NCBI GenBank assembly: GCA_015233705.1
Contig: JADFXE010000033.1
Span: 1-11,309, forward strand
Direction of reading: 5' to 3'
Length of the DNA: 11,309 nt
Origin: Candidatus Omnitrophota bacterium
GTDB taxonomy: Bacteria; Omnitrophota; Koll11; Zapsychrales; Fredricksoniimonadaceae
The translations under genes and the position numbers were made by a program. Position 1 is the stretch's first letter. Each line of letters begins with the position of its first letter. Of this stretch, positions 1 through 11,309 are shown in pieces. The notes below the pieces were generated by a model. The model saw only the letters and a list, made by a program, of their open reading frames with translations. It did no database searches and was not told the DNA's origin.

Positions 1-61
1 AATCTTCCAGGAAATGGGCGGGCGATTTGAGCGAATAAGCCGTCCCAGCCGCTGAAAGCAT
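1..61 (-). CDS. Possible start of an unidentified gene (partial)
   Basis: An ATG at 61-59 opens a minus-strand frame that stays open to the window edge and would begin MLSAAGTAYSLKSPAHFLED. It lies 17 bases after the comEA-like stop and on the same strand, which fits the last visible gene of the operon. There is only a weak purine-rich stretch (AAGAAGA) upstream, and 20 codons are too few to recognise a family. A competing reading is the tail of a plus-strand gene ending in TGA at 53-55. I cannot decide between them from this fragment. Confidence 0.25.
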   Translation of the reverse strand, partial: MLSAAGTAYSLKSPAHFLED

Positions 62-78
62 TAACCCAAATTGTCTTC

Positions 79-462
79 TTATTTTCTGCTGACAGCTGAC
101 TGCTGACCGCTGACTCCAGACTGCCGATTCACTTTCAAGCACCCCTCCAGCCTCCGCCACTTTCCTTTGGATATGCCGGCAGCTATGCGCACGTCTTCCA
201 GCGTCTTGAACGGTCCGTTCGCTTTACGATAATCAATAATCGCATGCGCCGTCGTTGGATTCATCCGCGGCAGCGCAACGAGATCCTCGAAAGATGCTGT
301 ATTGACATTCACGCGGGGAAAAAAGGATGGATCATCGAGGATGTGAAGGACCCTGACCCGGTCCCCATGGCCTTTCAGGGACAGGTCAAGGCCCAATCCG
401 GCAACAATGACCAGGCCGACAAAAAGAAAGACCTGACGCTCCTGCTGAGTAAGGTGGATCAT
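79..462 (-). CDS. comEA: ComEA-like helix-hairpin-helix DNA-binding protein
   Basis: This is a 127-residue protein with one N-terminal membrane segment (about residues 11-25, FLFVGLVIVAGLGL) and a short linker. A ComEA-type helix-hairpin-helix domain follows at about 51-111: 'VNVNTASFEDLVALPRM', then 'AHAIIDYRKANGPFKTLEDV'. ComEA-family proteins bind double-stranded DNA non-specifically at the outer face of the membrane during natural transformation. This copy lacks the SLBB domain of the longer Gram-positive form, so a minimal ComEA role is likely but not certain. The last ten codons or so (about 117-126) come from a heptanucleotide repeat array, giving an unrelated tail '[13 protein letters not shown]'. 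The ATG at 462 has AGGAG 16 bases upstream, which is too far to be a normal ribosome site, so the start is not firmly set. It lies 86 bases after the helicase gene. Confidence 0.8.
   Translation of the reverse strand: MIHLTQQERQVFLFVGLVIVAGLGLDLSLKGHGDRVRVLHILDDPSFFPRVNVNTASFEDLVALPRMNPTTAHAIIDYRKANGPFKTLEDVRIAAGISKGKWRRLEGCLKVNRQSGVSGQQSAVSRK
87..114 (-). repeat. Heptanucleotide repeat array A (4 units), comEA 3' end
   Basis: On the plus strand there are four tandem heptamers NGCTGAC with N = T, A, T, C. On the coding minus strand this reads GTCAGCN. The array sits in frame at the very end of the comEA-like gene, just before its stop at 79-81. The order of the variable base (T-A-T-C) is the same as in array D inside leuS. 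Confidence 0.85.
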
Positions 463-548
463 ACAACCCCGGGCAATGCTCCTGACGGGGCGGGAAAGGC
501 ATGGAAGGTGTCAGAATAATATCAAGGAAACGGCGGGTTGTCAAAAGA

Positions 549-2231
549 TCAAAACAACTTCATCTGATCCCGCTCCGGATCGCGGTGGAACTTGCGGGCC
601 TTTTCTTGCTCGTAGGCCTTGAGTTCCTCCTCGATATCGGCGAGAAAGCGCGACGGCGCCAGCTCAGCGGTCTGGCCGTAAATGAGGCGCCTGTGCGCAC
701 GAACCAAGTACAGCTCCTCCCTGGCCCGCGTCATGCCGACGTAAAACAGCCGGCGTTCCTCCTCAAGGTCCGAGGAAAAGAATTCCAGGTCCAGCGGCAG
801 AAGCCCTTCCTCGCAACCGACGATAAAGATGACCGGGAACTCCAGGCCCTTGGCCGCGTGAAGCGTCATCAGCGAAACCTTTTCGGCCCTGGCCAAATAA
901 CAATCCTCCGGCGTCTGCAGCGCCAGGACGTCGAGGAATTCAGCGACAGTCGCCGCCTCTTTGGCGATCGCCTGAAAATACTCCCAATGTTCGTTCAGTG
1001 CAGCGTCTTTCTTCCTGAGCGCCATGAGCGCCGCCAGCGGACCAGCGGCGGACGCGGACGATTTGAGCGCTGCGCGGGTTTCCGAACTCAGCTTCAGCGC
1101 CTTGTCGCCGGAAACCTGATACGGCACGCCCAGCCGGGACAGCGCCTCGGCGATCGAGCGGCCCTGCGCGTTCAACCGGTAGAGGACCGCGATATCGGCG
1201 AACGACCGCACCGCCGCCTCTTCCGTCACGCGGCCGGAGTTACGCGAAAAGTTGCTTGTGCCGCCGACGATCTTTTCGATCGAGTGTGCGATATATTCGG
1301 CCTCCGCCCTGTCCGTGACGCAGGCGTGGATCTTCAACAGCCCTTTGGCATGGATCTCGGCTATCAATTCCGAGACCGGAAAACGGGCGCCCTTCCCAAT
1401 CACCTGACCAGTCGCCTCCAGAAGATTGCCGCAGGAGCGGTAATTGCGGGACAGCTCAAGGACTTTTGCCAGCGAGAATGTGCGGACGAACGAATGAAAA
1501 AATCCCACGTCACTCCCGCGAAAGCCGTAGATCGCCTGGTTAGGGTCACCGATCGCGGTCAGCTGAACGCCGTCGCCGACAAGTTCCCGCAGAAGCGACT
1601 CCTGGACCGCGCTCACATCCTGAAACTCATCAACCAGGATAAAACGGTACATCCGGCGGACCTGTGCGCGAATATCCGCCTCATCCCGCAGCAGGAGAAC
1701 CGCATCGCGCAGGATATCATCGAAATCGACCAAGGACTTGTCGCGCAACATCTGGCGAAAAGCACTGATCTGGGGATCAGCCGTCTCTGTGTCAGCAGTC
1801 GCTTTCCAGTCAGCGATCTTTTTGAGGATGCGGCCGCGCTCAGCCCGGGAACGCTCAGGCCAGAAATCTTTCGCCAGCGTCTCGATCTCGTCTGGCGAGA
1901 CAATGGAAAAGGTCAGCGGGAATTTCAAACGGTCGGCATAACAACGGAGAAGACGCAAACTGAAGGCATGGAACGTCCCGACCTCGACCTGCGACTTGAG
2001 ATCAACACCCAGCTCGCGCAGGCGCCGGGACATCTCATCAGCTGCCTTGTTGGTAAAGGTAATGGCCAGGATCTTTTCTGTGGGCTGGAGATCCTGCGTC
2101 AGGCGTTGGATGCGATGCGTCAGGGTCTTGGTCTTGCCGGTGCCGGGTCCGGCGACGATAAGAAGATGCGAGCCGTCATGATCAACGGCCGAACGCTGCT
2201 CGACATTAAGTGCCGCTGGCGCTGAAGCCAT
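549..2231 (-). CDS. uvrD: UvrD/PcrA-type superfamily 1A DNA helicase, short form
   Basis: This is a 3'-5' DNA helicase/translocase of the UvrD/Rep/PcrA family, acting in repair. Visible motifs in order: Q motif LNVEQRSAV (8-16), Walker A AGPGTGKT (27-34), motif Ia 'AITFTNKAADEM', motif II 'VDEFQDVS', motif III 'IGDPNQAIYGFRGSD', motif IV 'LSRNYRS', motif V 'MTLHAAKGLEFPVIF', and motif VI 'ERRLFYVGMTRAREELYL'. At 560 residues it is clearly shorter than UvrD/PcrA (about 720). The region between motifs IV and V (2B) is reduced and the C-terminal Tudor-like part is missing. It ends instead in QMKLF, matching the QxxLF sliding-clamp binding consensus. I chose the ATG at 2231 because AGAGG lies 5 bases upstream; a GTG at 2234 is the alternative. 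The start overlaps the UPF0316 stop (TGATG), so translation is probably coupled. Confidence 0.93.
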   Translation of the reverse strand: MASAPAALNVEQRSAVDHDGSHLLIVAGPGTGKTKTLTHRIQRLTQDLQPTEKILAITFTNKAADEMSRRLRELGVDLKSQVEVGTFHAFSLRLLRCYADRLKFPLTFSIVSPDEIETLAKDFWPERSRAERGRILKKIADWKATADTETADPQISAFRQMLRDKSLVDFDDILRDAVLLLRDEADIRAQVRRMYRFILVDEFQDVSAVQESLLRELVGDGVQLTAIGDPNQAIYGFRGSDVGFFHSFVRTFSLAKVLELSRNYRSCGNLLEATGQVIGKGARFPVSELIAEIHAKGLLKIHACVTDRAEAEYIAHSIEKIVGGTSNFSRNSGRVTEEAAVRSFADIAVLYRLNAQGRSIAEALSRLGVPYQVSGDKALKLSSETRAALKSSASAAGPLAALMALRKKDAALNEHWEYFQAIAKEAATVAEFLDVLALQTPEDCYLARAEKVSLMTLHAAKGLEFPVIFIVGCEEGLLPLDLEFFSSDLEEERRLFYVGMTRAREELYLVRAHRRLIYGQTAELAPSRFLADIEEELKAYEQEKARKFHRDPERDQMKLF

Positions 2232-2806
2232 CACTTCCTCTTGAAGAAAGTGAGCGAACGGCGCTGTTGCGATGCCGGGAAGAAACCGCCGCCGACCTCG
2301 CGGATATCCTCGAGTGTATAAAAGGCATCGGACCGCACGCTCTTAATAAGATTGATGACCGACTTGGCGTCCCTGCGCTTGACGATCGAAAAGATGATGT
2401 CAGCCGCGCCTTCAACGCCGTGGCCGGACATGATGGTGGCGCCGTTGCCGTTCTTCTGCAGGGCCGCGACGATCTCCCTGCCGTTCTTGTTGACCATGAT
2501 ACGGATGATCTGCGCGCCGGAGGCCATCCGCTCCTCGATCCACATCCCGACGTAATTTCCGGTCGCGAACCCGCCGGCATAGGCAAAGAAGCAAGCGACG
2601 TTGGGCAGATGTGCAATGACCTGGCGTGCGACCAGAAGCCAGATCGATACTTCAAAAAACCCCAGAACGGAGGCCGTGAACTTGCGGCCCCGGCCGATCA
2701 TCATGATGCGCAGGGTGTCGAGCGACATGTCCAGGATCCGCGCCGCAAATATCAGCGCCGGAAGGATGCCGTAGGTGAACAAATTGGAATCAAGAAAACT
2801 GTGCAC
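2231..2806 (-). CDS. UPF0316 family membrane protein (DUF5698/DUF2179)
   Basis: This is a 191-residue protein with about three hydrophobic N-terminal segments ('YGILPALIFAARILDMSL', 'FTASVLGFFEVSIWLLVARQ', 'CFFAYAGGFATGNYVGMWIE'), followed by a soluble domain of about 100 residues. That layout fits UPF0316 (YebE-like) proteins, with a DUF5698 membrane part and a DUF2179 cytosolic part. The biochemical function of the family is not established; DUF2179 is thought to be a small ligand- or protein-binding domain. The start is a GTG at 2806 with AGGAG 5 bases upstream, an excellent ribosome site. It is unexpected between two repair genes: the helicase start overlaps its stop, so they are co-translated, but I see nothing that says why. 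The C-terminus is basic ('QQRRSLTFFKRK'). Confidence 0.85.
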   Translation of the reverse strand: MHSFLDSNLFTYGILPALIFAARILDMSLDTLRIMMIGRGRKFTASVLGFFEVSIWLLVARQVIAHLPNVACFFAYAGGFATGNYVGMWIEERMASGAQIIRIMVNKNGREIVAALQKNGNGATIMSGHGVEGAADIIFSIVKRRDAKSVINLIKSVRSDAFYTLEDIREVGGGFFPASQQRRSLTFFKRK

Positions 2807-2819
2807 GGAAACTCCTGAA

Positions 2820-2869
2820 GTCAGCTGTCAACAGTCAGCCGTCAGCAGATTTGTCAGCTGACTGCTGAC
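2820..2869. repeat. Heptanucleotide repeat array B: inverted pair between endoQ and UPF0316
   Basis: Four heptamers GTCAGCN (N = T, then a variant GTCAACA, then C, A) run from 2820 to 2847. A five-base spacer (GATTT) follows, then units in the opposite orientation (AGCTGAC, TGCTGAC) to 2869. GTCAGCAG (2841-2848) can pair with CTGCTGAC (2862-2869), giving an 8-bp stem with a 13-base loop. This is the only array in the window outside a gene and the only one holding both orientations. It fills most of the 66-base gap between the two genes. Confidence 0.85.
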
Positions 2870-2872
2870 TTT

Positions 2873-4159
2873 CTAAAATAATTCAATCTGCCCCTCGATC
2901 TGCTTGCGCTCACCTTCGCCGAAGATCTTGACCGTGCCAAACTCGCCGTCATAGCCGGCCGCGATCGACACTTTCCCGGCACGCATCCGCTTGATCCCTT
3001 CGGCCAGAACATCCCCGCCGACGGCCTGGATCTCTTTCAACGGAAAATCCATGAGGATCTTCAGCTCCGGCCCCAGACGGGTGAGCATGTCAAGATACAC
3101 GGCCTGGACCTGCTTGGAGGCCTTGCCCACGTCCCTGGCCTCGGCAATGACCTCCTCCAGGGGGATCAGACTGAAAAACGGCCGCGAACGCGGTGCCTTC
3201 TCGCCTTCAGGCCTCACCGCCAGTTCCTCGACGCGCGCCATGACGCCGACCGTCACCGGCTTGCCGCACGAGGGGCACAGACCCTTGTTCTTGATCGTCT
3301 CTTTGGGATGGAGCCTGACTTTGCAGGCCGCGTGTCCGTCGAAATGGTACTTGCCTTCCTCTGGGAAGAATTCGATCGTGGATTTGAATCCCTGGTCTTT
3401 CTTCTCCGACAGCGCGCGAAAAATACCGTCGTAGGAGAAATCACAATCAAAGATGTTCGCCTCGCGCGCCAGCTTGGAGGCTGAATGCGCGTCGGAGTTA
3501 GACACGAGAACGAACGGGTCGAGTTCCTTCAGGCGCCAGTTCATGACCGGATCCGACGACAAGCCGGTCTCGAGCGCATAAATATGTTTGGTCAGGTCCT
3601 CGTAACACTCCTCGATCGAATCAAAACCGCTTTTGGAACCCAGGACCGAGAACCACGGCGTCCAGATATGCGCCGGAATGAAAAGCGTCTTGGGATCGCA
3701 CTCCAGGCTGATCGCCAGAAGGTCTTTGGCATCCAGTCCCAGGATCGGCCGGCCGTCGGACTTGATATTGCCGATAGCATCGATCTTCTTCTGGAACTTG
3801 CGGGCCGCCTCCAGGCTGGAGAAAATGACGACGTTGTGAACCTTGCGGACCTTGTCGCCTTTCTTGTAAATGCAGGAGATCTCGGTCGACAGGATGAAAC
3901 GCACCTCACCCTTACAGGAGGCAGGAACCTCCCGGGCCGGTACGCCGGTAAACTTGTCTTTCAGACGAAAGAATCCGGCCTCGGCCGGTTCCAGTTTTTC
4001 TGCGATTTCATCGAGCCACTGCGGATGGATGCAGTCGCCGGTGCCCACGACCTGCAGGCCCTTGCGCTGGGCCCACAGCCAAAGGTTCTCCGGCGACAGG
4101 TCGCTGGACGTGGCGCGAGAGTAACGGGAATGGATATGCAAGTCAGCAATGAATTTCAT
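2873..4159 (-). CDS. endoQ: Endonuclease Q (EndoQ), PHP-domain repair nuclease
   Basis: EndoQ cuts DNA on the 5' side of deaminated bases (deoxyuridine, deoxyinosine, deoxyxanthosine) and abasic sites. It is known from Thermococcales/methanogens and from some bacteria such as Bacillus pumilus. The 428 residues match the family length. The N-terminal PHP metal centre is visible: DLHIHSRYS (H8, H10), GTGDCIH (D42, H45), E93, H108, 'IPAHIWTPW' (H164) and 'SNSDAHS' (D223, H225). A zinc-binding module follows: H276/C279 with C295-P-S-C298, then 'VTVGVMARVEELA'. The protein ends in QIELF (424-428), matching the clamp-binding consensus QL[SD]LF; archaeal EndoQ likewise docks on PCNA through its C-terminus. 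The ATG lies 2 bases after the toxin stop, with no good ribosome site of its own, which suggests translational coupling. Its stop is followed by repeat array B. Confidence 0.93.
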   Translation of the reverse strand: MKFIADLHIHSRYSRATSSDLSPENLWLWAQRKGLQVVGTGDCIHPQWLDEIAEKLEPAEAGFFRLKDKFTGVPAREVPASCKGEVRFILSTEISCIYKKGDKVRKVHNVVIFSSLEAARKFQKKIDAIGNIKSDGRPILGLDAKDLLAISLECDPKTLFIPAHIWTPWFSVLGSKSGFDSIEECYEDLTKHIYALETGLSSDPVMNWRLKELDPFVLVSNSDAHSASKLAREANIFDCDFSYDGIFRALSEKKDQGFKSTIEFFPEEGKYHFDGHAACKVRLHPKETIKNKGLCPSCGKPVTVGVMARVEELAVRPEGEKAPRSRPFFSLIPLEEVIAEARDVGKASKQVQAVYLDMLTRLGPELKILMDFPLKEIQAVGGDVLAEGIKRMRAGKVSIAAGYDGEFGTVKIFGEGERKQIEGQIELF

Positions 4160-4161
4160 GG

Positions 4162-4575
4162 TCAGACCAGAAAAGAATGCTTAAAGATATCTTTGGCGCA
4201 GGACATCAATTTCTTGTCCGCTGTCAGGAACCCATCAGCGTCCCACAACACAGCGGCTCCCACATGAATGGCATCCAGGGACCGCAAGGTAAACCGGTCA
4301 AGGACCCTGATCGATTCGGCTTCCACATCGGCACTCCACGGAACAATATGCGCTGCCCGCAGATCCTGCTCGATCTGCGGCCAAATAAGACGGAACGCCG
4401 CAAGCGTCAGCCTTCCTTCCAGACGGTGGCGACGCAAAACATGAAAAACCTCGACACGCACAAGCGGAGAAAAGGCCACATCACCGGCATCGCCCAAAAG
4501 ACGCTCAACCTCTGCTGTTCCGGTCTCTTCAATATATCTTTTGACGAACGCGGACGTGTCGACGAACAATCTCAA
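4162..4575 (-). CDS. vapC: PIN-domain toxin (VapC-like ribonuclease)
   Basis: This 137-residue protein is a single PIN domain, the endoribonuclease fold of VapC toxins. The acidic active-site residues are in the expected places: D6 ('LFVDTSAFVKRY'), E42 ('VRVEVFHVL'), D101 ('SLDAIHVGAA') and D120 ('FLTADKKL'). I use a TTG start at 4575. AGGAGG lies 7 bases upstream, the next codons read straight into the PIN motif, and the TTG overlaps the antitoxin stop as TTGA. A longer open frame upstream reads through the antitoxin gene and is not needed. VapC toxins cut tRNA or rRNA; the target here cannot be read from sequence. EndoQ starts 2 bases downstream. Confidence 0.9.
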   Translation of the reverse strand: MRLFVDTSAFVKRYIEETGTAEVERLLGDAGDVAFSPLVRVEVFHVLRRHRLEGRLTLAAFRLIWPQIEQDLRAAHIVPWSADVEAESIRVLDRFTLRSLDAIHVGAAVLWDADGFLTADKKLMSCAKDIFKHSFLV

Positions 4576-4811
4576 AACCGTTCCTCCTGGCGCAGCTTGA
4601 TGACCATTTCTGAGGCCGAAAGCCCGGGACCCTTCAATTTCACACGCTTGATCTTCCGTTTCCAACCCTGCGTCTTTTCCGCTCCCCAGTGGGGAATGAT
4701 CTCAGCCACCGGCTTGTCGCGCTCCATGATCACAAAACGCTCGCCCTTCTTAACGCTCCCCAGATACTTCGCGAAATGATGCGTCAACTCCCTGACATTG
4801 ATGGCAACCAT
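4572..4811 (-). CDS. Phd/YefM-type antitoxin
   Basis: This 79-residue protein has an N-terminal Phd/YefM DNA-binding fold ('INVRELTHHFAKYLGSVKKG', then 'ERFVIMERDKPVAEIIP'). It also has a charged C-terminal tail, the usual site of toxin neutralisation. The ATG at 4811 has AGGAGG 8 bases upstream. Its stop overlaps the TTG start of the PIN toxin by four bases, the classic coupling of an antitoxin-toxin pair. By analogy with the family, the complex should bind the palindrome just upstream and repress its own promoter. Confidence 0.88.
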   Translation of the reverse strand: MVAINVRELTHHFAKYLGSVKKGERFVIMERDKPVAEIIPHWGAEKTQGWKRKIKRVKLKGPGLSASEMVIKLRQEERF

Positions 4812-4832
4812 ATTGTCATCCTCCTAGCGAAA

Positions 4833-4862
4833 AGCATAACATATGTTAGACAACTTGTCTAA
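4833..4862 (-). promoter_or_regulatory. Candidate promoter of the toxin-antitoxin/repair operon
   Basis: Read on the minus strand, TTAGAC (4862-4857) and TATGCT (4838-4833) are separated by 18 bases, an acceptable sigma-70-like -35/-10 pair. Transcription would start close to 4826, just ahead of the antitoxin ribosome site. The -35 box lies inside the palindromic operator, so repressor binding would block polymerase. No other convincing promoter was seen before endoQ. Confidence 0.5.
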
Positions 4863-4865
4863 CAT
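4843..4865. promoter_or_regulatory. 23-bp perfect palindrome, likely antitoxin operator
   Basis: ATGTTAGACAA and TTGTCTAACAT form 11-bp perfect arms around a single central C. The palindrome lies about 30 bases upstream of the antitoxin ATG and overlaps the candidate -35 box. This is the expected place and shape for the operator of a Phd-type antitoxin. The assignment to this repressor is inferred from position. Confidence 0.7.
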
Positions 4866-4906
4866 TCTGCGCGCCGGCGGCGGCACTCTTCCATAGCCGC
4901 GTCCTT

Positions 4907-4922
4907 CGCCAGAGTACTGGCG
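4907..4922 (-). terminator. Short hairpin downstream of the serpin gene
   Basis: CGCCAG and CTGGCG form a 6-bp perfect stem with a 4-base loop, about 11 bases after the serpin stop. An overlapping alternative hairpin (GGCGG/CCGCC, with loop TGAT) uses part of the same sequence. Neither is followed by a U run, so this is at best a weak or factor-dependent terminator. Confidence 0.25.
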
Positions 4923-4932
4923 GATCACCGCC

Positions 4933-6114
4933 TCACTGCGCTGCCGGGTCCGTGACGCGGCCCATGAACAGGATCTGGCCGGAACGGCGGTCCTGGATCA
5001 TAAAAATGAACGGCCGGTCCGCGTAAAAGACCTTGGGTGGAGCCTCTTCTAAAAACACCGCCTTATCTTCCATCGTTACCGCTGTCGCGGCGGCAGCCTC
5101 GGTTCCCTCTTCATTGACCTTGATCCACGCCTTATGGTACACCGCTCCGATATATAGATCCGGCTTGCCGGTCATTCCGGAAAAGTCGGCTCCCTGACCA
5201 AAAGCACTCGCCATGCCCAAAGCTTTCAGATCATCGCTCAGCTCTGATCCTTCTCCAAATTCAAAACTTGGCAAAGATACGCTCACCTTCTCCGGCGCCA
5301 TCTTGACCTGCCAGGCCCCGGCCGCAAGCGCGGCCGCCGTCCTGTCTTTGGGAAGAATGACGATCATGGACAGCTCATCACCCTTATAAGGAAGCTCCAG
5401 GAACTGCGCCGCATCATTCTCACCGTACGCGAAGCTATCGAGCTTATGCATCATGGCCACGTCCTTGAAAGTCTCCGGCGAGAGCCAAAATGCGCTTAGG
5501 GTGGTCTGGGACTTGTCAAAGGCCGTCTGCCACTGCCCCTTAAAATACACCGCGTTCGTCAGCACCAGACGCGTTGAGGAATTCAGACTGCGTTCAGGCA
5601 GAAGATCCTTAATGCGGTCCCGGGTCTGTTCGGCAACCCAACTGTTGATCGTGATCCGTGAATTCTCGGCATCAGCAAAAAAATCCAAGCTGCGCGCCTC
5701 GCCACCGTAAACCGTCTTGACCATCTTCAGATAATCCGGCAGGAACGAAAAACCTTTCTGCGCCCACAGGGCATTGGCCATCGTCAGCTCGAACAGCGGA
5801 TCCTCGACGTTCAGCCGTCCGATCATCTCCGATGTCGCAGCACGACGCGCCGCATCATCAGCGGAAAAACCCAGGACAGTGCGCATCTCATCCGCCGTCT
5901 TACCGCGCGCGCCTTCGTATGTCATGCCCAGCGCCGTTGCCAGGCTGTACGGCGAGAAAAAGACATTGCCGCCCCTGGCCGCATAACGCTGATAAAGATT
6001 AAAGGCAAACTGGTTATTGGACTCCGACAGCGTTGCCAACGTCTGCGCCGATACATTCCCGCCGACGCCCGCCAAGGCCACGATCACAACACAAAAGGCC
6101 CAAAACTTTCTCAT
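4933..6114 (-). CDS. Secreted serpin (serine/cysteine protease inhibitor)
   Basis: This 393-residue protein starts with a signal peptide (MRKFWAF..., hydrophobic core about 6-18) and a likely cut after VSA (residue 23), so it acts outside the cytoplasm. The rest is a full serpin fold: 'NVFFSPYSLATALGMTYEGA' near the N-terminus, 'LTNAVYFKGQWQTAFD' in the middle, and 'ADRPFIFMI' near the end. The reactive-loop hinge EEGTEAAAAT (335-344) keeps the small residues of an inhibitory serpin, which traps a protease by loop insertion. The P1 residue is somewhere near 348-355; K351 is one candidate. I chose the ATG at 6114 because GGGGA lies 6 bases upstream and the signal peptide begins there; the frame extends 16 codons further upstream without support. 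Serpins are scattered and uncommon in bacteria. The start codon overlaps the stop of a broken deoC tail (ATGA). Confidence 0.95.
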   Translation of the reverse strand: MRKFWAFCVVIVALAGVGGNVSAQTLATLSESNNQFAFNLYQRYAARGGNVFFSPYSLATALGMTYEGARGKTADEMRTVLGFSADDAARRAATSEMIGRLNVEDPLFELTMANALWAQKGFSFLPDYLKMVKTVYGGEARSLDFFADAENSRITINSWVAEQTRDRIKDLLPERSLNSSTRLVLTNAVYFKGQWQTAFDKSQTTLSAFWLSPETFKDVAMMHKLDSFAYGENDAAQFLELPYKGDELSMIVILPKDRTAAALAAGAWQVKMAPEKVSVSLPSFEFGEGSELSDDLKALGMASAFGQGADFSGMTGKPDLYIGAVYHKAWIKVNEEGTEAAAATAVTMEDKAVFLEEAPPKVFYADRPFIFMIQDRRSGQILFMGRVTDPAAQ

Positions 6115-6158
6115 GCCATTCCCCGTTTTTTCGCCTCGTTCATGATCGCTTCCGTCGA
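6111..6158 (-). pseudogene. Broken second copy of the deoC 3' end
   Basis: Read on the minus strand these bases give STEAIMNEAKKRGMA-stop, against ATEAIMEEAKKRGF-stop at the end of deoC. On the plus strand, 28 of 31 bases match between 6127-6157 and 6883-6913, and 17 are identical in a row (6141-6157 and 6897-6913). No further deoC sequence is present. The fragment's TGA overlaps the serpin ATG (ATGA). This suggests that deoC once ran directly into the serpin gene before the methyltransferase segment came between them. Confidence 0.6.
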
Positions 6159-6183
6159 CCAAGCATTGGCGAATCCCAATCCA

Positions 6184-6828
6184 TCAAAGATTAACGGCCT
6201 CAACGTAAACACTCCCAGGAGAACGCTCAGAAAGATCTAATGCTCCCGGATTAGAAATCCTCGTTGTCCCGGCCTCCATAACCCGAGGATCAGAAAAACT
6301 AGCCGTGGCCAAAACACGACATAACGATGTGCTGTCGTACATCCATTGATGATTCCTCTGCCCAGCGAGAAAGTATTTTATCCGCGCCAAGAAAGATCGC
6401 GGCATTGGCGCAGACAATAAAGTCTCTCGAATAAATTCATCCGCATCTCCAGATGTCACGTACTGTTCAACGAGCCATTTTAAGTCAGGAACAACAATTC
6501 TTATTATCCCTCCCGGACATAATACCCGCTGGCTTTCTCTCAAGAAGACACCAACTTCTGCTTCAGAAAGATGCTCCAACATATGTGACGTGTACAACAC
6601 TTCAACAGATTGGTCTCTTAACGGAATATGTCTAACGGCATCCGCATAGCCAATCTGATGCTTTTCTGCAAACCCTATAAATTCCTGTTGCCCCTTATTC
6701 AGCCCCCTCATTTTCTTAAGAGCCGACACCAATAAGGGCCATTGAGCAAGTCGAACGCTTAATGAATTATCAAAATTCTTCCAACCCGCCGTCGGCGTCT
6801 GACCACAGCCAATATTGACCCTGTCCAT
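6184..6828 (-). CDS. Class I SAM-dependent methyltransferase
   Basis: This 214-residue protein has the SAM-binding motif VNIGCG right at the N-terminus (4-9), 'LYTSHMLEHLSEAE' (78-91) and 'RVLCPGGIIRIVVPDLKWL' (101-119). It fits the Methyltransf_11 type and resembles the small predicted methyltransferases often found with sugar or glycan genes. The substrate cannot be told. The ATG has AGGAGG 4 bases upstream. Base composition is clearly lower than in the neighbours: a hand count of 6241-6840 gives about 46% GC against the mid-50s or more in deoC and leuS. Together with the flanking deoC direct repeats, this points to recent arrival by transfer. It lies 41 bases after deoC on the same strand, so it is probably read from the same transcript. 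Confidence 0.87.
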   Translation of the reverse strand: MDRVNIGCGQTPTAGWKNFDNSLSVRLAQWPLLVSALKKMRGLNKGQQEFIGFAEKHQIGYADAVRHIPLRDQSVEVLYTSHMLEHLSEAEVGVFLRESQRVLCPGGIIRIVVPDLKWLVEQYVTSGDADEFIRETLLSAPMPRSFLARIKYFLAGQRNHQWMYDSTSLCRVLATASFSDPRVMEAGTTRISNPGALDLSERSPGSVYVEAVNL

Positions 6829-6869
6829 AAATCCTCCTTTTAGCCCAGCCTAAGCATGAGTCGCCTATG

Positions 6870-7580
6870 TTAAAATCCTCTTTTCTTCGCCTCTTCCATG
6901 ATCGCTTCCGTCGCGGTTGCGCCAATCCGTGTGCAGCCGAGCTCGCGGAATTTCAAAAGATCATCCAGCGTGCGAATGCCACCGGCTGCCTTGATCCTGA
7001 TAAACGCCGCGCAATGCTGGCGCATCAGTCGCACCTGCGCTTCAGTCGCGCCCTTGTAGTTGTAGTCACCGCTCGGGAGTTTCACAAAACCGTAACCGGA
7101 GGAAGTCTTCACAAAAGCCGGACGAACATCGTTACAGATCTCACACAACTTGATGATTTCAGCGTCAGTCAGAAAATCATTCTCAAAGATAACTTTCAGC
7201 GCCGCGCTCTTCCTGGCGCAGGCCTTCTGAAGAAACTCGATCTCGGCTTTAACATAATCCCACGCGCCGCTCTTGACCTTGCCGATATTGACAACCATAT
7301 CGATCTCGGCGGCACCGGCCTCAAGCGCCTCCTGCGTCTCGCGAAGCTTCACCGAGGTCATGCTGTTGCCGTGCGGAAAACCCACGACCGCGCAGATCAG
7401 GACCGATGATCCCTTGAGCAAGGGCTTAACCTGGGGGATCGAATATGGCTTCACGCACACGGTCGCAACGCCGTGCTTTACGGCAATTTGGCAGCCGGCT
7501 GCTATTTCCGCATCCGTCATCGTCGGATGCAAGAGCGAATGATCGATCATTTGAGCAATGTCACGCAAACTTACAACCAT
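6870..7580 (-). CDS. deoC: Deoxyribose-phosphate aldolase
   Basis: DeoC splits 2-deoxy-D-ribose 5-phosphate into glyceraldehyde 3-phosphate and acetaldehyde, in deoxynucleoside breakdown in the cytoplasm. The 236 residues fit the class I aldolase family. The Schiff-base lysine is K158 in 'AFVKTSSGYG', and the second active-site lysine is K197 in 'RIKAAGGIR'. D94 is in 'EIDMVVNIG', and 'CAVVGFPHG' is also present. The ATG at 7580 is preferred because GGAGG lies 5 bases upstream; a GTG two codons earlier overlaps that ribosome site. No other nucleoside-catabolism gene is nearby. Its last codons are duplicated 740 bases downstream, next to the serpin gene. Confidence 0.96.
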   Translation of the reverse strand: MVVSLRDIAQMIDHSLLHPTMTDAEIAAGCQIAVKHGVATVCVKPYSIPQVKPLLKGSSVLICAVVGFPHGNSMTSVKLRETQEALEAGAAEIDMVVNIGKVKSGAWDYVKAEIEFLQKACARKSAALKVIFENDFLTDAEIIKLCEICNDVRPAFVKTSSGYGFVKLPSGDYNYKGATEAQVRLMRQHCAAFIRIKAAGGIRTLDDLLKFRELGCTRIGATATEAIMEEAKKRGF

Positions 7581-7617
7581 AAGCACCTCCCGTAAAAAGT
7601 GAAGACCAAAAACTCTT

Positions 7618-7743
7618 TTAACCCAGATTTTTCAGTAGCACAATTTTGTCGACGATGCCGCTTGCACAAAATTGTGCGGATGAAAAATCGTCGGCTTCCA
7701 CAGTGTTCTCGTCAAGAAAAGCCGGGGTTATCCCGCATGCCAT
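7618..7743 (-). CDS. Possible 41-residue small ORF inside the structured gap
   Basis: An ATG at 7743, with AGGA 3-4 bases upstream, opens 41 codons ending in TAA at 7618. The peptide begins MACGITPAFLDENTVEADDF and ends 'GIVDKIVLLKNLG'. It sits between leuS and deoC on their strand. I recognise no family. Against coding: the frame contains the whole 64-base palindrome, and its third-position composition is not as GC-rich as in the neighbours. For coding: plausible start, ribosome site and fairly normal amino-acid make-up. Comparative data would decide. Confidence 0.3.
   Translation of the reverse strand: MACGITPAFLDENTVEADDFSSAQFCASGIVDKIVLLKNLG
7626..7689. repeat. 64-base near-perfect palindrome
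   Basis: The 12-bp perfect arms GCACAATTTTGT (7638-7649) and ACAAAATTGTGC (7666-7677) enclose a 16-base loop. Outside them, after a 3-base mismatch on each side (GTA/GGA), the 9-bp perfect arms GATTTTTCA (7626-7634) and TGAAAAATC (7681-7689) continue the stem. Twenty-one of 24 stem positions pair. It may be a REP- or MITE-like element or a strong RNA hairpin; no transposase is nearby. Confidence 0.85.
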
Positions 7744-7795
7744 AATTCCTATTGAGAAATGCGGGTTCAAAACCGTCAAAGCAAAGCCCCGACTT
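7719..7795 (-). other. Nested stem structure downstream of leuS
   Basis: As minus-strand RNA, AAGUCGGGG (7795-7787) pairs with CCCCGGCUU (7727-7719) over 9 bp with one G-U pair. Inside it, CCCGCAU (7765-7759) pairs with AUGCGGG (7738-7732). The G-U pair exists only in the minus-strand RNA; the plus strand has an A-C mismatch there, so a minus-strand transcript fits better. The outer stem is followed by UUCUUG. It could be a leuS terminator, a leader element for deoC, or part of a repeat. The possible small ORF starts in the inner loop, so the stem could control its translation. Confidence 0.4.
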
Positions 7796-7806
7796 CAACT
7801 ATTTTG

Positions 7807-10308
7807 CTAAACAACAATGCTCACAAGTTTGTTCGGCACGACGATGAATTTGCGGATCTCTTTGCCAGCGATATGGCGCTGGACCGATTCATCAGCGAGC
7901 ACGATCGGACGCAGGAGCGCCTCATTGGCATCGCGCGGGACCGTGAACTCACCCCTCACCTTGCCGTTAACCTGAGCCACGATCTTGACCGTGTCAGTCT
8001 TGAGCGCTGACTCATCAAATTTCGGCCAGGGCTCGAAGGCCGCGCTCGGCTGACGGCTGACGGCTGACAGCTGACCTTCAGTCTTTCCCATCATCTCCCA
8101 CAGCTCCTCGGCAAAATGCGGCACGAACGGCGCCATGAGAAGAAGAACCGTCTCAAGCGATTTATTCAAGAGCGCCTGCTTAGCCTGCGCACCCTCGGGG
8201 ACCTGATACTTGTCCACCGCATTCATGAGCACCATGACCGCGGAAAGCGCTGTGTTGAACTTGAACCCGCCCTCCATGCTCTCGGTGACCTTCTTGATCG
8301 CGGCGTTACGTTCAAACTCAAGTTTCTTATCCTCATCGTCTGCTGACAGCTGACTGCTGCCCGCTGACTTATATCTGTTCTCCAGCGCGCAAAAGACACG
8401 GTTCAGAAAACGCCAGTTACCCTCGAGCCCGGCCGGGTTCCATTCCAGCTGATCCTCCGGCGGAGCGGCAAAGAGGATGAACATCCTAAGCGTGTCCGCG
8501 CCGAACCGGCTGATGACCTCATCCGGGTCAACAACATTGCCCTTGGACTTGGACATGACCTCGCCTTCCTTGAGCACCATGCCCTGCGTGAGCAGCCGCG
8601 TGAACGGCTCATCGCAACTGACCAGCCCCAGGTCCTTGAGGAACTTGGTGAAAAAGCGCGAATACAGCAAATGCAGGATCGCGTGCTCGATCCCGCCAAT
8701 ATACTGATCGACCGGCATCCAATAGGCGGCCTTGCCCTGATCAAAGATCTTCTGGTCATTGTGGGCGTCGCAATAGCGCAGGAAATACCACGACGAATCG
8801 AAGAAAGTCGCCATGGTATCCGTCTCCCGACGGGCATCAGCGCCGCACTCGGGGCACTTGACCTCAACAAAGGCCTTGACCTTGGCCAGCGGACTGCCGC
8901 CTTCACCGGTAATCGGCGCGTCCTTGGGAAGCTCGACCGGCAGATCCTTCTCCGGCACCGGAACGATGCCGCAGGTCTTGCAATAGATCATGGGGATCGG
9001 CGCGCCCCAGTAACGCTGACGGGAAATGAGCCAGTCGCGCAGACGCCAGTGGACCGACACGCGGCCCATCTTGTTGGCCTCCATCCACTCGGAGATCTTC
9101 TTCTTGGCCTCTTCGCTCGGCAGGCCGTCAAATTGTTTGGAATTCACAAGCGCGCCGGTTTCCTCAAAAGCCTTGGTCATGGTCTCCGGTGTTGCCCCCG
9201 CGCTTGCTGGGTCTTGAATGACCACGCGCATCAGCAGTTTGTGCTCGCGGGCGAACTCGAAGTCACGCTGATCGTGCGTCGGCACCGCCATGATCGCGCC
9301 AGTGCCATACTCCATAAGAACATAATCGCCGATCCAGACCGGAATGGTCTCGCCGTTAACAGGATTTACCGCATATCCGCCGGTAAAAACGCCTTCCTTG
9401 CGATCCTCACCCGACATGCGCAGCGACTTGGAGGTATTGGCCGCCTTCTCAACGAACGCCGCGACCGCCTTTTCCTGCGGCGTGCCTTTGGACAGCTTCG
9501 CAACCAGAGGATGCTCGGGCGCCAGCGTCACATAGGTCGCACCGAAAATGGTGTCAGGCCTCGTCGTGAAGACCGTGATCACATCCCCCGAACCTTTGAC
9601 CTTGAAATAAATATCCGCGCCAAAACTCTTGCCGATCCAGTTCTCCTGCATGGCCACGACCCGCGACGGCCAGTCATTGAGCTTCTTCAGGTCCGCCAAC
9701 AGCGGCTCGGAATAATGCGTGATCTTCAGATACCACTGCTCAAGATCCTTCTGCACCACCTCGTTCTTACAGCGCCAGCAGGCATTGTTGATGACCTCTT
9801 CGTTGGCAAGCGTGGTCTGACACGACGGGCACCAGTTGACCGGCGAGCCCTTCTTGTAGGCCAGGCCCTTCTCGAACATCTTGATGAAGATCCACTGGTT
9901 CCACTTGTAGTAGGAGGCATCGCACGTCGCCAGCTCCCGGTCCCAATCGTAGGAAAAACCCATCTTGCGCAGGCCGGAACGCATGTCGTCGATGCACTTG
10001 TAAGTCCATTCGCCGGGCGACACGCCGCGCTTGATCGCCGCGTTCTCCGCCGGCTGGCCAAAGGCGTCGTAGCCCATGGGATGCAGGACATTATAACCGC
10101 GCATCATCTTGTAACGGGCGATCACATCCGCGATGGTGTAGTTGCGAACGTGACCCATGTGGATCTTGCCCGACGGATAAGGGAACATCTCAAGGACGTA
10201 ATACTTCTCCTTTTTGCCATCCGCCTCGGCGCGAAAAATCTTCTTCTCTGCCCAGTATTTCTGCCACTTGTCCTCGATCCGCTTGATGTCATTGGTTGTG
10301 TACGGCAT
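7807..10308 (-). CDS. leuS: Leucyl-tRNA synthetase
   Basis: This enzyme charges tRNA-Leu with leucine; it is a class Ia synthetase in the cytoplasm. The 833 residues fit the family. Visible in order: '[17 protein letters not shown]' with the HIGH motif HMGH (50-53); a zinc module with two CxxC pairs ('NWCPSC', 'ACWRCK'); the inserted CP1 editing domain ('[15 protein letters not shown]', '[15 protein letters not shown]'); the catalytic core ('[12 protein letters not shown]'); the KMSKS loop VMSKS (584-588); and the C-terminal '[15 protein letters not shown]'. I chose the ATG at 10308 (MPYTTNDIK) because AGGA lies 5-6 bases upstream; the frame runs 16 codons further without support. Two oddities: heptamer repeat arrays are inserted in frame at about residues 647-656 and 745-754, and the usual DAFGLPAEN reads DAFGQPAEN. 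It starts 10 bases after the zinc-ribbon gene. Confidence 0.97.
8048..8075 (-). repeat. Heptanucleotide repeat array C (4 units) inside leuS
   Basis: On the plus strand there are four heptamers NGCTGAC with N = G, G, G, A. It is in frame and encodes '[11 protein letters not shown]' at about residues 745-754, between the C-terminal helix bundle and the '[12 protein letters not shown]' segment. The coding strand carries GTCAGCN, the orientation that makes no stop codon. Confidence 0.85.
8341..8368 (-). repeat. Heptanucleotide repeat array D (4 units) inside leuS
   Basis: On the plus strand there are four heptamers NGCTGAC with N = T, A, T, C; the third unit carries one change (TGCTGCC). It is in frame and encodes '[10 protein letters not shown]' at about residues 647-656, at the start of the anticodon-binding domain. 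The order of variable bases equals that of array A. Confidence 0.83.
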
Positions 10309-10318
10309 ATCTTTCCTT

Positions 10319-10513
10319 TTAGAACATACTGATAATAAAACTGATCGCGAGCACAAGCGCGATGCTTATCCAGATCCATTTCCCCACCGGCCCGCGCATC
10401 CTGCCCAGAAATCCGGAACTCGAACGATTCAGGGAATTGCCGCAAAAATGGCACAACAGCGCCTCTTCATCATAGATAAGGTTCCTGCAATGCGGGCACA
10501 TCATTTCTGACAT
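10319..10513 (-). CDS. Small zinc-ribbon membrane protein
   Basis: This 64-residue protein has a zinc-ribbon knuckle pair, C6-P-H-C9 and C21-H-F-C24, followed by a linker rich in Ser/Gly/Arg and one C-terminal membrane segment (about 46-64, '[19 protein letters not shown]'). It is presumably anchored with the zinc ribbon in the cytoplasm. No specific function can be assigned. It is directly upstream of leuS, whose ribosome site overlaps the end of this gene, so the two are co-transcribed. There is no clear ribosome site before its ATG; the upstream region is AT-rich (ATATAT, TAATAT). Confidence 0.8.
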
Positions 10514-10681
10514 GGCCGATATATTATCATAAAAATAAAACTTCTATAATATTAAAGTGCCGCAAACAAAATATTCTTTCTTCGCGACCTTAAGTCATTG
10601 GTAGCAAACGCTTTAAAATCAAGGCGCCTTGCCCCGGCCCATTGGCACGGCCAGCAGCCATGTTTTATACTTACTCCACGT
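10514..10681. promoter_or_regulatory. Divergent intergenic region
   Basis: This 168-base gap lies between the minus-strand zinc-ribbon/leuS operon and the plus-strand secreted-protein gene. The half nearest the zinc-ribbon gene is AT-rich and must hold that operon's promoter, although no single -35/-10 pair stands out. The other half is GC-rich and carries the plus-strand promoter described separately. No palindrome of note was seen. Confidence 0.5.
10642..10671 (+). promoter_or_regulatory. Promoter of the secreted-protein gene (leaderless mRNA)
   Basis: TTGGCA (10642-10647) and TATACT (10666-10671) are spaced 18 bases apart, close to the sigma-70 consensus at both boxes. Initiation about 7 bases after the -10 box falls near 10678-10679, leaving only 3-4 bases before the ATG at 10682. 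That fits the absence of any ribosome site there. Confidence 0.55.
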
Positions 10682-11309
10682 ATGATCCCGTATAAAAATC
10701 AGACCTTTAAGCGCATAGCAGCAATGGTGCTTCTCCTGGCCTTTCTGGCGAACACCCTTTTGCCCGCGCCGGCCCTGGCCCAGGTCATCGTGCCGGCCCT
10801 GCCTGCGCTTGCCAGCCCGAACTTTGCCCCCACGCTTCTTAAGGGTGTGATTGTGGACGCGAAGGATCCGTACCGGTTTGAGTTTATTGTAGATAAAGGA
10901 AGTGCCGAAAAGTCCGCGGTCAGCAGTCAGCAGTCAGCAGATTTGAAATCAATTTCCCAGCGCCTAATTAAGTATTTTCTCGCCGCGCTGACAACGCCTG
11001 AGAACGACCTGTGGGTCAACCTTTCACCGCTGGAGAAAGACCGCATCGTGGCGCCGGCCTTTGGCCAGACCACGATGGGCCGCGACCTGCTGGCGCAGGA
11101 CTATCTACTCAAGCAGATCACGGCATCCCTCCTCCATCCGGACAGCGACACCGGCAAAAAATTCTGGGCCGAGGTCTACCAGAAGGCCCACGAAAAGTTC
11201 GGGACCATCGACATTCCCGTTGACGCCTTCAACAAGGTCTGGATCTCGCCGGACAAGGCCCGGATCTACACCAACGGCAATAAGGCCTACATCGTCAGCT
11301 GCCGGATGA
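10682..11309 (+). CDS. Large secreted Omnitrophota-type protein, N-terminal part (partial)
   Basis: The frame opens at the ATG at 10682 and runs past the window edge (209 codons seen). It begins with a clear signal peptide: K5, K10, R11, then 'AAMVLLLAFLANTLLPAPALA' with a likely cut after ALA (residue 33). The mature part includes 'LLKGVIVDAKDPYRFEFIVD', 'LIKYFLAALTTPENDLWVNL', 'MGRDLLAQDYLLKQ' and 'FNKVWISPDKARIY'. From memory this matches a family of secreted proteins of unknown function common in Omnitrophota. A heptamer repeat array is inserted in frame at about residues 80-87, between the 'FEFIVD' and 'RLIKYFLAAL' segments. There is no ribosome site; see the promoter entry. The function is unknown. 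Confidence 0.85.
   Translation, partial: MIPYKNQTFKRIAAMVLLLAFLANTLLPAPALAQVIVPALPALASPNFAPTLLKGVIVDAKDPYRFEFIVDKGSAEKSAVSSQQSADLKSISQRLIKYFLAALTTPENDLWVNLSPLEKDRIVAPAFGQTTMGRDLLAQDYLLKQITASLLHPDSDTGKKFWAEVYQKAHEKFGTIDIPVDAFNKVWISPDKARIYTNGNKAYIVSCRM
10912..10940 (+). repeat. Heptanucleotide repeat array E inside the secreted-protein gene
   Basis: Three perfect units GTCAGCA (10919-10939) follow one degenerate unit (GTCCGCG). It is in frame and encodes 'SAVSSQQSAD'. The array ends in GTCAGCAGATTTG, the same 13 bases found in array B at 2841-2853. The orientation on the coding strand is again GTCAGCN. Confidence 0.83.

Follow-up and report, generated by a model that had tools for sequence, protein, structure and literature searches.

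Background

Filamentous cyanobacteria harbour short tandemly repeated repetitive (STRR) sequences, i.e. short tandem heptamers at dispersed sites. In Geobacter metallireducens, elements of four heptamers (unit GGACCGG) occur in 49 copies, and paired class 3 sites consist of five MTYCTGA heptamers (PMC2700814), while in the Beggiatoaceae the heptamer TAACTGA forms dispersed direct repeats of two to six copies (PMC4679880). These dispersed heptamers of cyanobacteria, Geobacter and Beggiatoaceae have been described without an agreed cause. Tandem heptamers (GACAGAT) are also found in the 23S rRNA intervening sequence (IVS) of Coxiella burnetii, beside the S23p/IVP open reading frame (ORF) of this 428 nt insertion, which has a 28-bp terminal inverted stem (PMC4990558); the IVP/S23 protein has been called functionally uncharacterised (PMC11270868). 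Here we examine arrays of the heptamer GTCAGCN in a stretch of 11,309 nt from a Candidatus Omnitrophota bacterium (GenBank assembly GCA_015233705.1, contig JADFXE010000033.1, positions 1 to 11,309; "the window" in the following), together with genes of the protein family PF05635 (IVP) in other genomes.

We argue that the GTCAGCN arrays of the window are, with fair probability, solo copies of the terminal repeat of very small PF05635 mobile elements. Such an element is the likely source of the arrays, and the link to IVP genes is the finding of interest: the IVP protein family and STRR-type repeats were already known, and new is the connection between dispersed arrays and PF05635 elements. No link between IVP genes and dispersed heptamers was found among the matches listed by searches of the open-access literature, outside which subscription papers and preprints lie.

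Results

IVP genes between inverted arrays of short tandem units

Two segments of the related genome G070, each bounded by a forward TCAGC array on one side and an inverted TCAGC array on the other, resemble each other more closely than their neighbouring sequences do, and both encode a PF05635 protein. The IVP element is a single PF05635/TIGR02436 gene (23S_rRNA_IVP, 'four helix bundle protein') between inverted terminal repeats. Its length is about 480 bp (median 476 bp over 72 elements), and the terminal repeat mostly comprises 4-5 tandem short units, usually of 7 nt, in which changes are heaped at one or two positions.

The IVP loci used to assess this architecture were the best-scoring ones and others taken in score order, and are not a random sample. 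From one batch of 30 loci L410 was left out (below the family cut-off), and two other loci near contig ends were skipped. A first search of 20 genomes gave PF05635 matches in 13, and 30 PF05635 loci of these 13 were compared with 30 Y1_Tnp loci as a control: a period-7 array lay within 170 nt of 18 of the PF05635 loci and of none of the Y1_Tnp loci. The left flank and the inverted right flank of the PF05635 loci scored on average 17.2 when both came from one locus and 8.1 when they came from different loci, a within-locus score that none of 20,000 permutations reached, and in 21 of the 30 loci the best-scoring flank was the locus's own partner.

A larger set comprised 102 IVP loci (44 from Omnitrophota and 58 from genomes not so labelled). 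Adjacent arrays had period 7 at 54 of the 102 loci and period 8 at 15; period 14, as a multiple of 7, was found at 49. Of the 100 loci with both flanks, 75 had inverted ends that passed the threshold, compared with 0.7% of mismatched pairs and with 15 of 100 in a direct-orientation control (two of the 102 loci, with too short a flank, were dropped from this test). Among a further 38 loci, 25 had arrays and 25 inverted ends (2.4% of mismatched pairs), and inverted ends were present in 10 of another 13, a set without a mismatched control. On 14 plasmids (13 cyanobacterial, one from Azospirillum; 14 of 30 listed matches, from 44 records) inverted ends were seen in 13, against 9.9% of mismatched pairs, a rate due to the sharing of a unit by some plasmids.

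The period is 7 in 47 of the 75 clear-ended loci; read by eye, the others look like 6, 8, 9 or 10 nt. The terminal repeat differs between IVP elements, and the architecture is found in several phyla; ends made of inverted arrays of 4-5 short tandem units characterise the IVP loci at large. TCAGC-type ends occur on the IVP genes of loci L342, L350, L423, L541, L548 and L573, and the ends of L322 consist of GTCAGTG/GTCAGCG units. The boundaries in pairs of related IVP loci are mixed: L392 and L393 share long flanks, and in other pairs the likeness runs out at the repeats or close to them, for one or for both of the sides.

On two cyanobacterial plasmids the IVP gene lies between cas6 and cas4, and on a third between cas10 and a cmr3-family gene; at L454 inverted arrays surround the IVP gene, at L456 a short inverted repeat does so and at L452 a weak one. 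IVP genes amid cas genes had been noted in an earlier survey; on these plasmids they seem likely to have been inserted there and not to take part in CRISPR.

Solo copies, head-to-head doublets and gene-flanking pairs resemble the anatomy of repetitive extragenic palindromic (REP) sequences, bacterial interspersed mosaic elements (BIME) and their RAYT genes. The arrays could accordingly be REP-like ends moved by a RAYT-type Y1 (HUH) transposase, with IVP genes as passengers or as other users of similar ends, and Y1_Tnp matches are indeed present in 17 of 20 genomes, including three (G126, G304 and G340) without an IVP gene. However, the absence of flanking period-7 arrays from all 30 Y1_Tnp loci departs from the REP/RAYT pattern and does not support the Y1 transposase as the partner of the arrays, and G152 and G302 carry arrays without any Y1_Tnp match. 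We therefore consider this explanation unlikely.

Solo arrays match the IVP ends of their own genome

With the 75 IVP ends as candidates, and leaving out arrays at most 300 nt from an IVP gene, the best-matching end came from the same genome for 48 of 62 arrays in G070 (5.8 expected), 4 of 6 in G322 (0.2 expected) and 1 of 2 in G388 (0.1 expected). When some IVP-flanking arrays were still included, the counts were 50 of 64, 4 of 6 and 2 of 3, respectively. Arrays of G070 and G322 share the unit of an IVP element in their own genome. In G322, the closest relative examined, whose leucyl-tRNA synthetase (LeuRS) is 86% identical to that of the window, an array within LeuRS and an IVP element have the unit GACGTNN in common, and the left end of this element starts 4 nt after LeuRS. 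G388 also has an IVP element in this LeuRS-DeoC spacer, a different one whose ends are of the unit GTCATAN. Of 57 genomes that carry TCAG-type arrays 51 have PF05635, compared with 28 of 57 genomes that lack such arrays (Fisher, 4.4e-6). Close pairs of IVP loci from different genomes, namely L392/L393, L442/L449 and L335/L383, have units in common.

Arrays in the window and their counterparts in relatives

Each array of the window (Table 1) is built of four GTCAGC cores with one variable base between neighbouring cores. The two-unit pattern GTCAGCNGTCAGC has 11 matches on both strands, and none arose in 200 dinucleotide-preserving shuffles; Tandem Repeats Finder reported rows of period 7 (or 14) at all five stretches, for array B on its + arm only. 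The two arms of array B form a head-to-head doublet, the only one in the window. All arrays inside ORFs are sense to their ORF; read antisense, the GTCAGCN unit contains TGA. Seven-nucleotide tandem units occur at five sites in 11.3 kb, as is typical of STRR-type dispersed heptamers. There was no PF05635 match in the 10 window ORFs scanned against Pfam nor in window ORFs of at least 40 aa (profile search), and with no IVP gene between them the arrays can be classed as solo ends at most.

Table 1. Heptamer arrays of the window and the LeuRS gene that holds two of them
Feature	Position	Strand	Description
Array A	88-114	-	four GTCAGC cores; C-terminal codons of HHH/ComEA-like ORF 79-462(-)
Array B, + arm	2820-2846	+	four cores, one of them GTCAAC; intergenic, between ORFs 2231-2806 and 2873-4159
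Array B, inverted arm	2857-2869	-	two cores
Array C	8049-8075	-	four cores; LeuRS loop in ORF 7807-10356(-)
Array D	8342-8368	-	four cores, one of them GGCAGC; second LeuRS loop, ORF 7807-10356(-)
Array E	10912-10938	+	four cores, the first GTCCGC; N-terminal part of ORF 10598-11308(+)
LeuRS gene with arrays C and D	7807-10356	-	Pfam matches and homologues; likelier start 10308

A first-pass annotation of the window had listed GTCAGCN arrays at five loci, four of them inside genes, and both statements hold, whereas its "about 3-6 units" narrows to four cores per array, with a short inverted arm added in B. It had further taken the same order of variable bases in arrays A and D as a sign that whole arrays are copied. 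The shared order is real, but copying is only suggested by it: sharing over the five arrays is modestly above chance (permutation 0.014), and some identical triple arises in 9.6% of permutations. The proposed count in related genomes found no GTCAGCN array of at least three units in any of eight, and the window arrays are lineage-specific. The proposed comparison of orthologues likewise found none of the window arrays compared present as such. Finally, it had called the tolerance of such arrays in essential enzymes rare: arrays C and D do lie in LeuRS, yet this is less strange than it appeared because both loops vary in length among relatives.

The orthologue comparison was possible slot by slot since the contigs G322:C25 and G302:C5 share gene content and order with the window. 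The G322 orthologue lacks array A, and the sequence that matches slot E in this genome is a paralogue with masked bases; at slot E of G302, reading the alignment by eye, we found a degenerate GTAGGNN run. In LeuRS, slot D holds GACGTNN units in G322 and GTCAGAC units in G388, which has ACGTCNG-like units in slot C. The relatives of the window LeuRS are chiefly labelled Omnitrophota, with one close relative (P0018, on a G302 contig) labelled Elusimicrobia. In an alignment of the first 55 of 120 listed proteins (out of 7,997 scored), the loop with array C is about nine residues longer in the window than in most relatives, and the loop with array D shows no net change in length. Loop patterns in these relatives, read from protein sequence only, suggest further heptamer arrays at both positions. 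Selection for tolerated sites can explain this reuse of slots because LeuRS loops vary in length anyway. A second enzyme-like case was observed in G070, where a 260-residue ORF, which we take by eye to be HisF, contains an array in frame (L197:13858-13894).

Arrays of this kind might instead be binding sites of a DNA- or RNA-binding regulator, spread by selection on expression, as has been proposed for the Geobacter and Beggiatoaceae arrays (PMC2700814, PMC4679880). The fixed number of units and the conserved cores would suit a multimeric binder, and the TAACTGA arrays of one genome are mostly upstream of start codons. On the other hand, four of the five window arrays and 19 of the 69 G070 arrays are inside ORFs, the unit at one and the same slot differs between related genomes, and inverted pairs of ends flank IVP genes. 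Regulator sites are in our view an improbable origin of the window arrays.

As to the other genes of the window, the host ORF of array E extends past the window edge. Each of the 32 family genomes searched contains its N-terminal part, with 2 to 70 matches per genome and in open frames that reach about 4,000 residues; the ORF has no Pfam or NCBIfam match and is a member of a large paralogous Omnitrophota family. ORF 2873-4159, for which the Pfam scan gave nothing, has its match in structures of Endonuclease Q from archaea (5zb8, E 3.4e-50) and would be an EndoQ-like repair enzyme in a bacterium, 66-86% conserved in kin. A serpin gene at 4933-6162 (Pfam E 6.5e-114) also adjoins the cognate gene cluster in G302 and G322. 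The LeuRS-DeoC spacer of the window contains a 24-nt inverted repeat (7626-7689, 88% complementary) without a heptamer array.

Period, unit number and variation of the arrays

The window together with 12 related loci (74.6 kb) contains nine period-7 arrays and none at periods 4-6 or 8-12. A scan of 254 kb of G322 gave 6 period-7 arrays, compared with none after a shuffle that preserves base composition only. In 800 kb of G070, 69 arrays have period 7 and 12 have period 10, and each of the other periods from 4 to 13 accounts for 0-3. Runs of TCAGC in G070 have two units in 5 cases, three in 5, four in 3, five in 14, six in 2 and ten in 1, the commonest form being the 33 nt array TCAGC-YN-TCAGC-YN-TCAGC-YN-TCAGC-YN-TCAGC. 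By eye, the flanks of the G070 arrays are unshared save for one duplicated segment. Among 111 genome arrays (from six sources, some IVP ends included) 42 have five units and 39 four, and among 108 arrays at IVP ends 49 have four and 26 five.

Changes crowd into two of the seven phases, both in the end arrays (0.91, 0.72 expected) and in the genome arrays (0.88, 0.70 expected). Contiguity of the variable phases shows no excess in the end arrays (0.708, permuted 0.711), while the genome arrays reach 0.766 (permuted 0.691); a design of a five-base core and a two-base spacer is hence established for the G070 TCAGC arrays only. The peak at 4-5 units and the phase-limited change argue against simple slippage. 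In G258 and G025 the reversed control pattern scored 27+29 and 15+24, which implies that both genomes are rich in heptamer arrays of another unit.

Independent heptanucleotide microsatellites formed by replication slippage, for which a unit of 7 nt fixed by the contact length of the polymerase has been proposed (PMC4679880), would accord with the preference for period 7 in kin and with the drift in sequence along some G070 arrays, but such a class should show homogeneous units and numbers falling steadily from two, whereas neither the run lengths nor the phases behave in this way. Moreover, sites that are not linked share one unit, which in turn agrees with IVP ends, and IVP ends occur as inverted pairs, so that we regard slippage as improbable.

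Discussion

Probable solo ends of very small mobile elements

Three points are observations: the build of the element, its occurrence across several phyla, and the agreement of solo arrays with IVP ends of their own genome. We infer that an IVP element with ends resembling GTCAGCN is, or once was, part of the window genome, and that arrays would persist inside a gene only where a loop tolerates changes in length and the reading direction is free of stops. Solo arrays may arise by mobilisation or by deletion of ends, an origin comparable to that of REP sequences around RAYT genes. That the GTCAGCN repeat spreads, as the first-pass annotation had supposed, agrees with its absence from the orthologues compared and from the eight related genomes, with the preferred array size in kin, and with array families in kin that match the ends of mobile elements in their own genome.

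Several observations weigh against an origin of the window arrays from IVP elements. No IVP gene with exact GTCAGCN ends was present among the loci examined, the TCAGC-type ends and the L322 units coming nearest, so that the identity of these five arrays as IVP ends is something we infer. No IVP gene was found in the 553 kb examined of 58 viral contigs with four GTCAGCN units, which leaves only an indirect link for the unit of the window, nor did the array-bearing G126, G304 and G340 give a PF05635 match; the same is true of 6 of the 57 array-bearing genomes. In the stretches examined around 30 array loci of a phylum survey, one contained an IVP gene, which was not adjacent to the array. Overall, the similarity of IVPs shows no significant correlation with that of their end repeats (Spearman 0.038, a value reached in 364 of 2000 permutations), and only close relatives among the IVP loci share repeats. 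About a quarter to a third of the IVP loci have no clear ends, the IVP gene beside LeuRS in G322 has an internal stop, and the pairs of related IVP loci resolved no insertion event or empty site.

Structures provide a possible rationale for the number of units. The entries 2gsc and 2rld, solved relatives of PF05635, have five chains each, and the title of a reference describes a quaternary structure of five four-helix bundles. The IVP protein may thus be a pentamer that sits on the array with one subunit per repeat unit; if so, 4-5 evenly spaced cores would be favoured and the bases between the cores would be free. Since the searches made found no catalytic domain in the IVP protein, another enzyme would have to do the chemistry. 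A reverse transcriptase is one candidate: the IVP protein is distantly akin to Avd, the partner of such an enzyme, and a borrowed polymerase is a reasonable guess. IVP/S23 proteins might characterise a widespread group of minimal mobile elements that lack a transposase. A ring of five four-helix bundles would then read the ends, with each subunit on one repeat, the chemistry for their spread would be borrowed, and the solo arrays that they leave in bacterial genomes would be the STRRs, the Geobacter sites and the heptamers of 23S IVSs. We offer this joint scheme tentatively, at somewhat less than even chances.

If the link between the arrays and IVP elements is true, a class of bacterial repeats that lacks a cause would gain one, as the ends of a tiny mobile gene, and enzymes would have an identified source of new loops inserted in frame, of which LeuRS is the case here. 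Linking the IVP protein to the heptamers opens both to testing, since the heptamers would be what the protein recognises and the trace that it leaves.

Comparison with known systems

The Rickettsia palindromic element is a palindromic in-frame insert of its own family sequence, and insertion inside genes is the sole feature compared in which it resembles the window arrays. REP/BIME sequences with RAYT work in a similar way, occurring singly, as doublets and as inverted pairs that enclose a gene, but their ends consist of a single hairpin instead of tandem short units; the gene here is that of an IVP, and the Y1 loci compared are without arrays. The Avd protein of diversity-generating retroelements is a distant relation of the IVP protein: the NCBIfam Avd model gave E 5.8e-6 for one of three IVPs scanned, and the structures 4DWL and 2GSC have been called homologous (PMC10053308).

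The Coxiella 23S IVS resembles the IVP elements in protein family, approximate length, terminal inverted stem and tandem heptamers, and one G070 element has GACAGAA/GACAGAT ends. It differs in being sited in 23S rRNA, whereas the window arrays are in and between protein genes and Rfam, at gathering thresholds, gave no match in the window. The passages of PMC4990558 on this IVS do not tie its heptamers to dispersed arrays.

STRRs were the parallel drawn by the first-pass annotation, and an apt one: the IVP genes of cyanobacterial plasmids are flanked by heptamer arrays of like build, arranged as inverted pairs (the comparison concerns arrays adjoining IVP genes). An STRR-like repeat was right in kind, but no element had been seen behind the arrays, where the evidence now points to PF05635. 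The units differ, e.g. GGGAACA and TCAGRAK at IVP ends, and the window arrays are not mostly intergenic. The TAACTGA repeats of the Beggiatoaceae are likewise dispersed heptamers, and TCAGTTA, their reverse, has the same TCAG start; unlike the window arrays they are mostly intergenic, and the terms four helix, S23 and intervening are absent from the main text of PMC4679880. The Geobacter sites have been interpreted as regulator sites (PMC2700814), but they are also composed of four or five heptamers and occur within and between genes, and their class 3 unit, when reversed, is TCAGRAK, the IVP-end unit on Nostoc, Aulosira and Trichormus plasmids.

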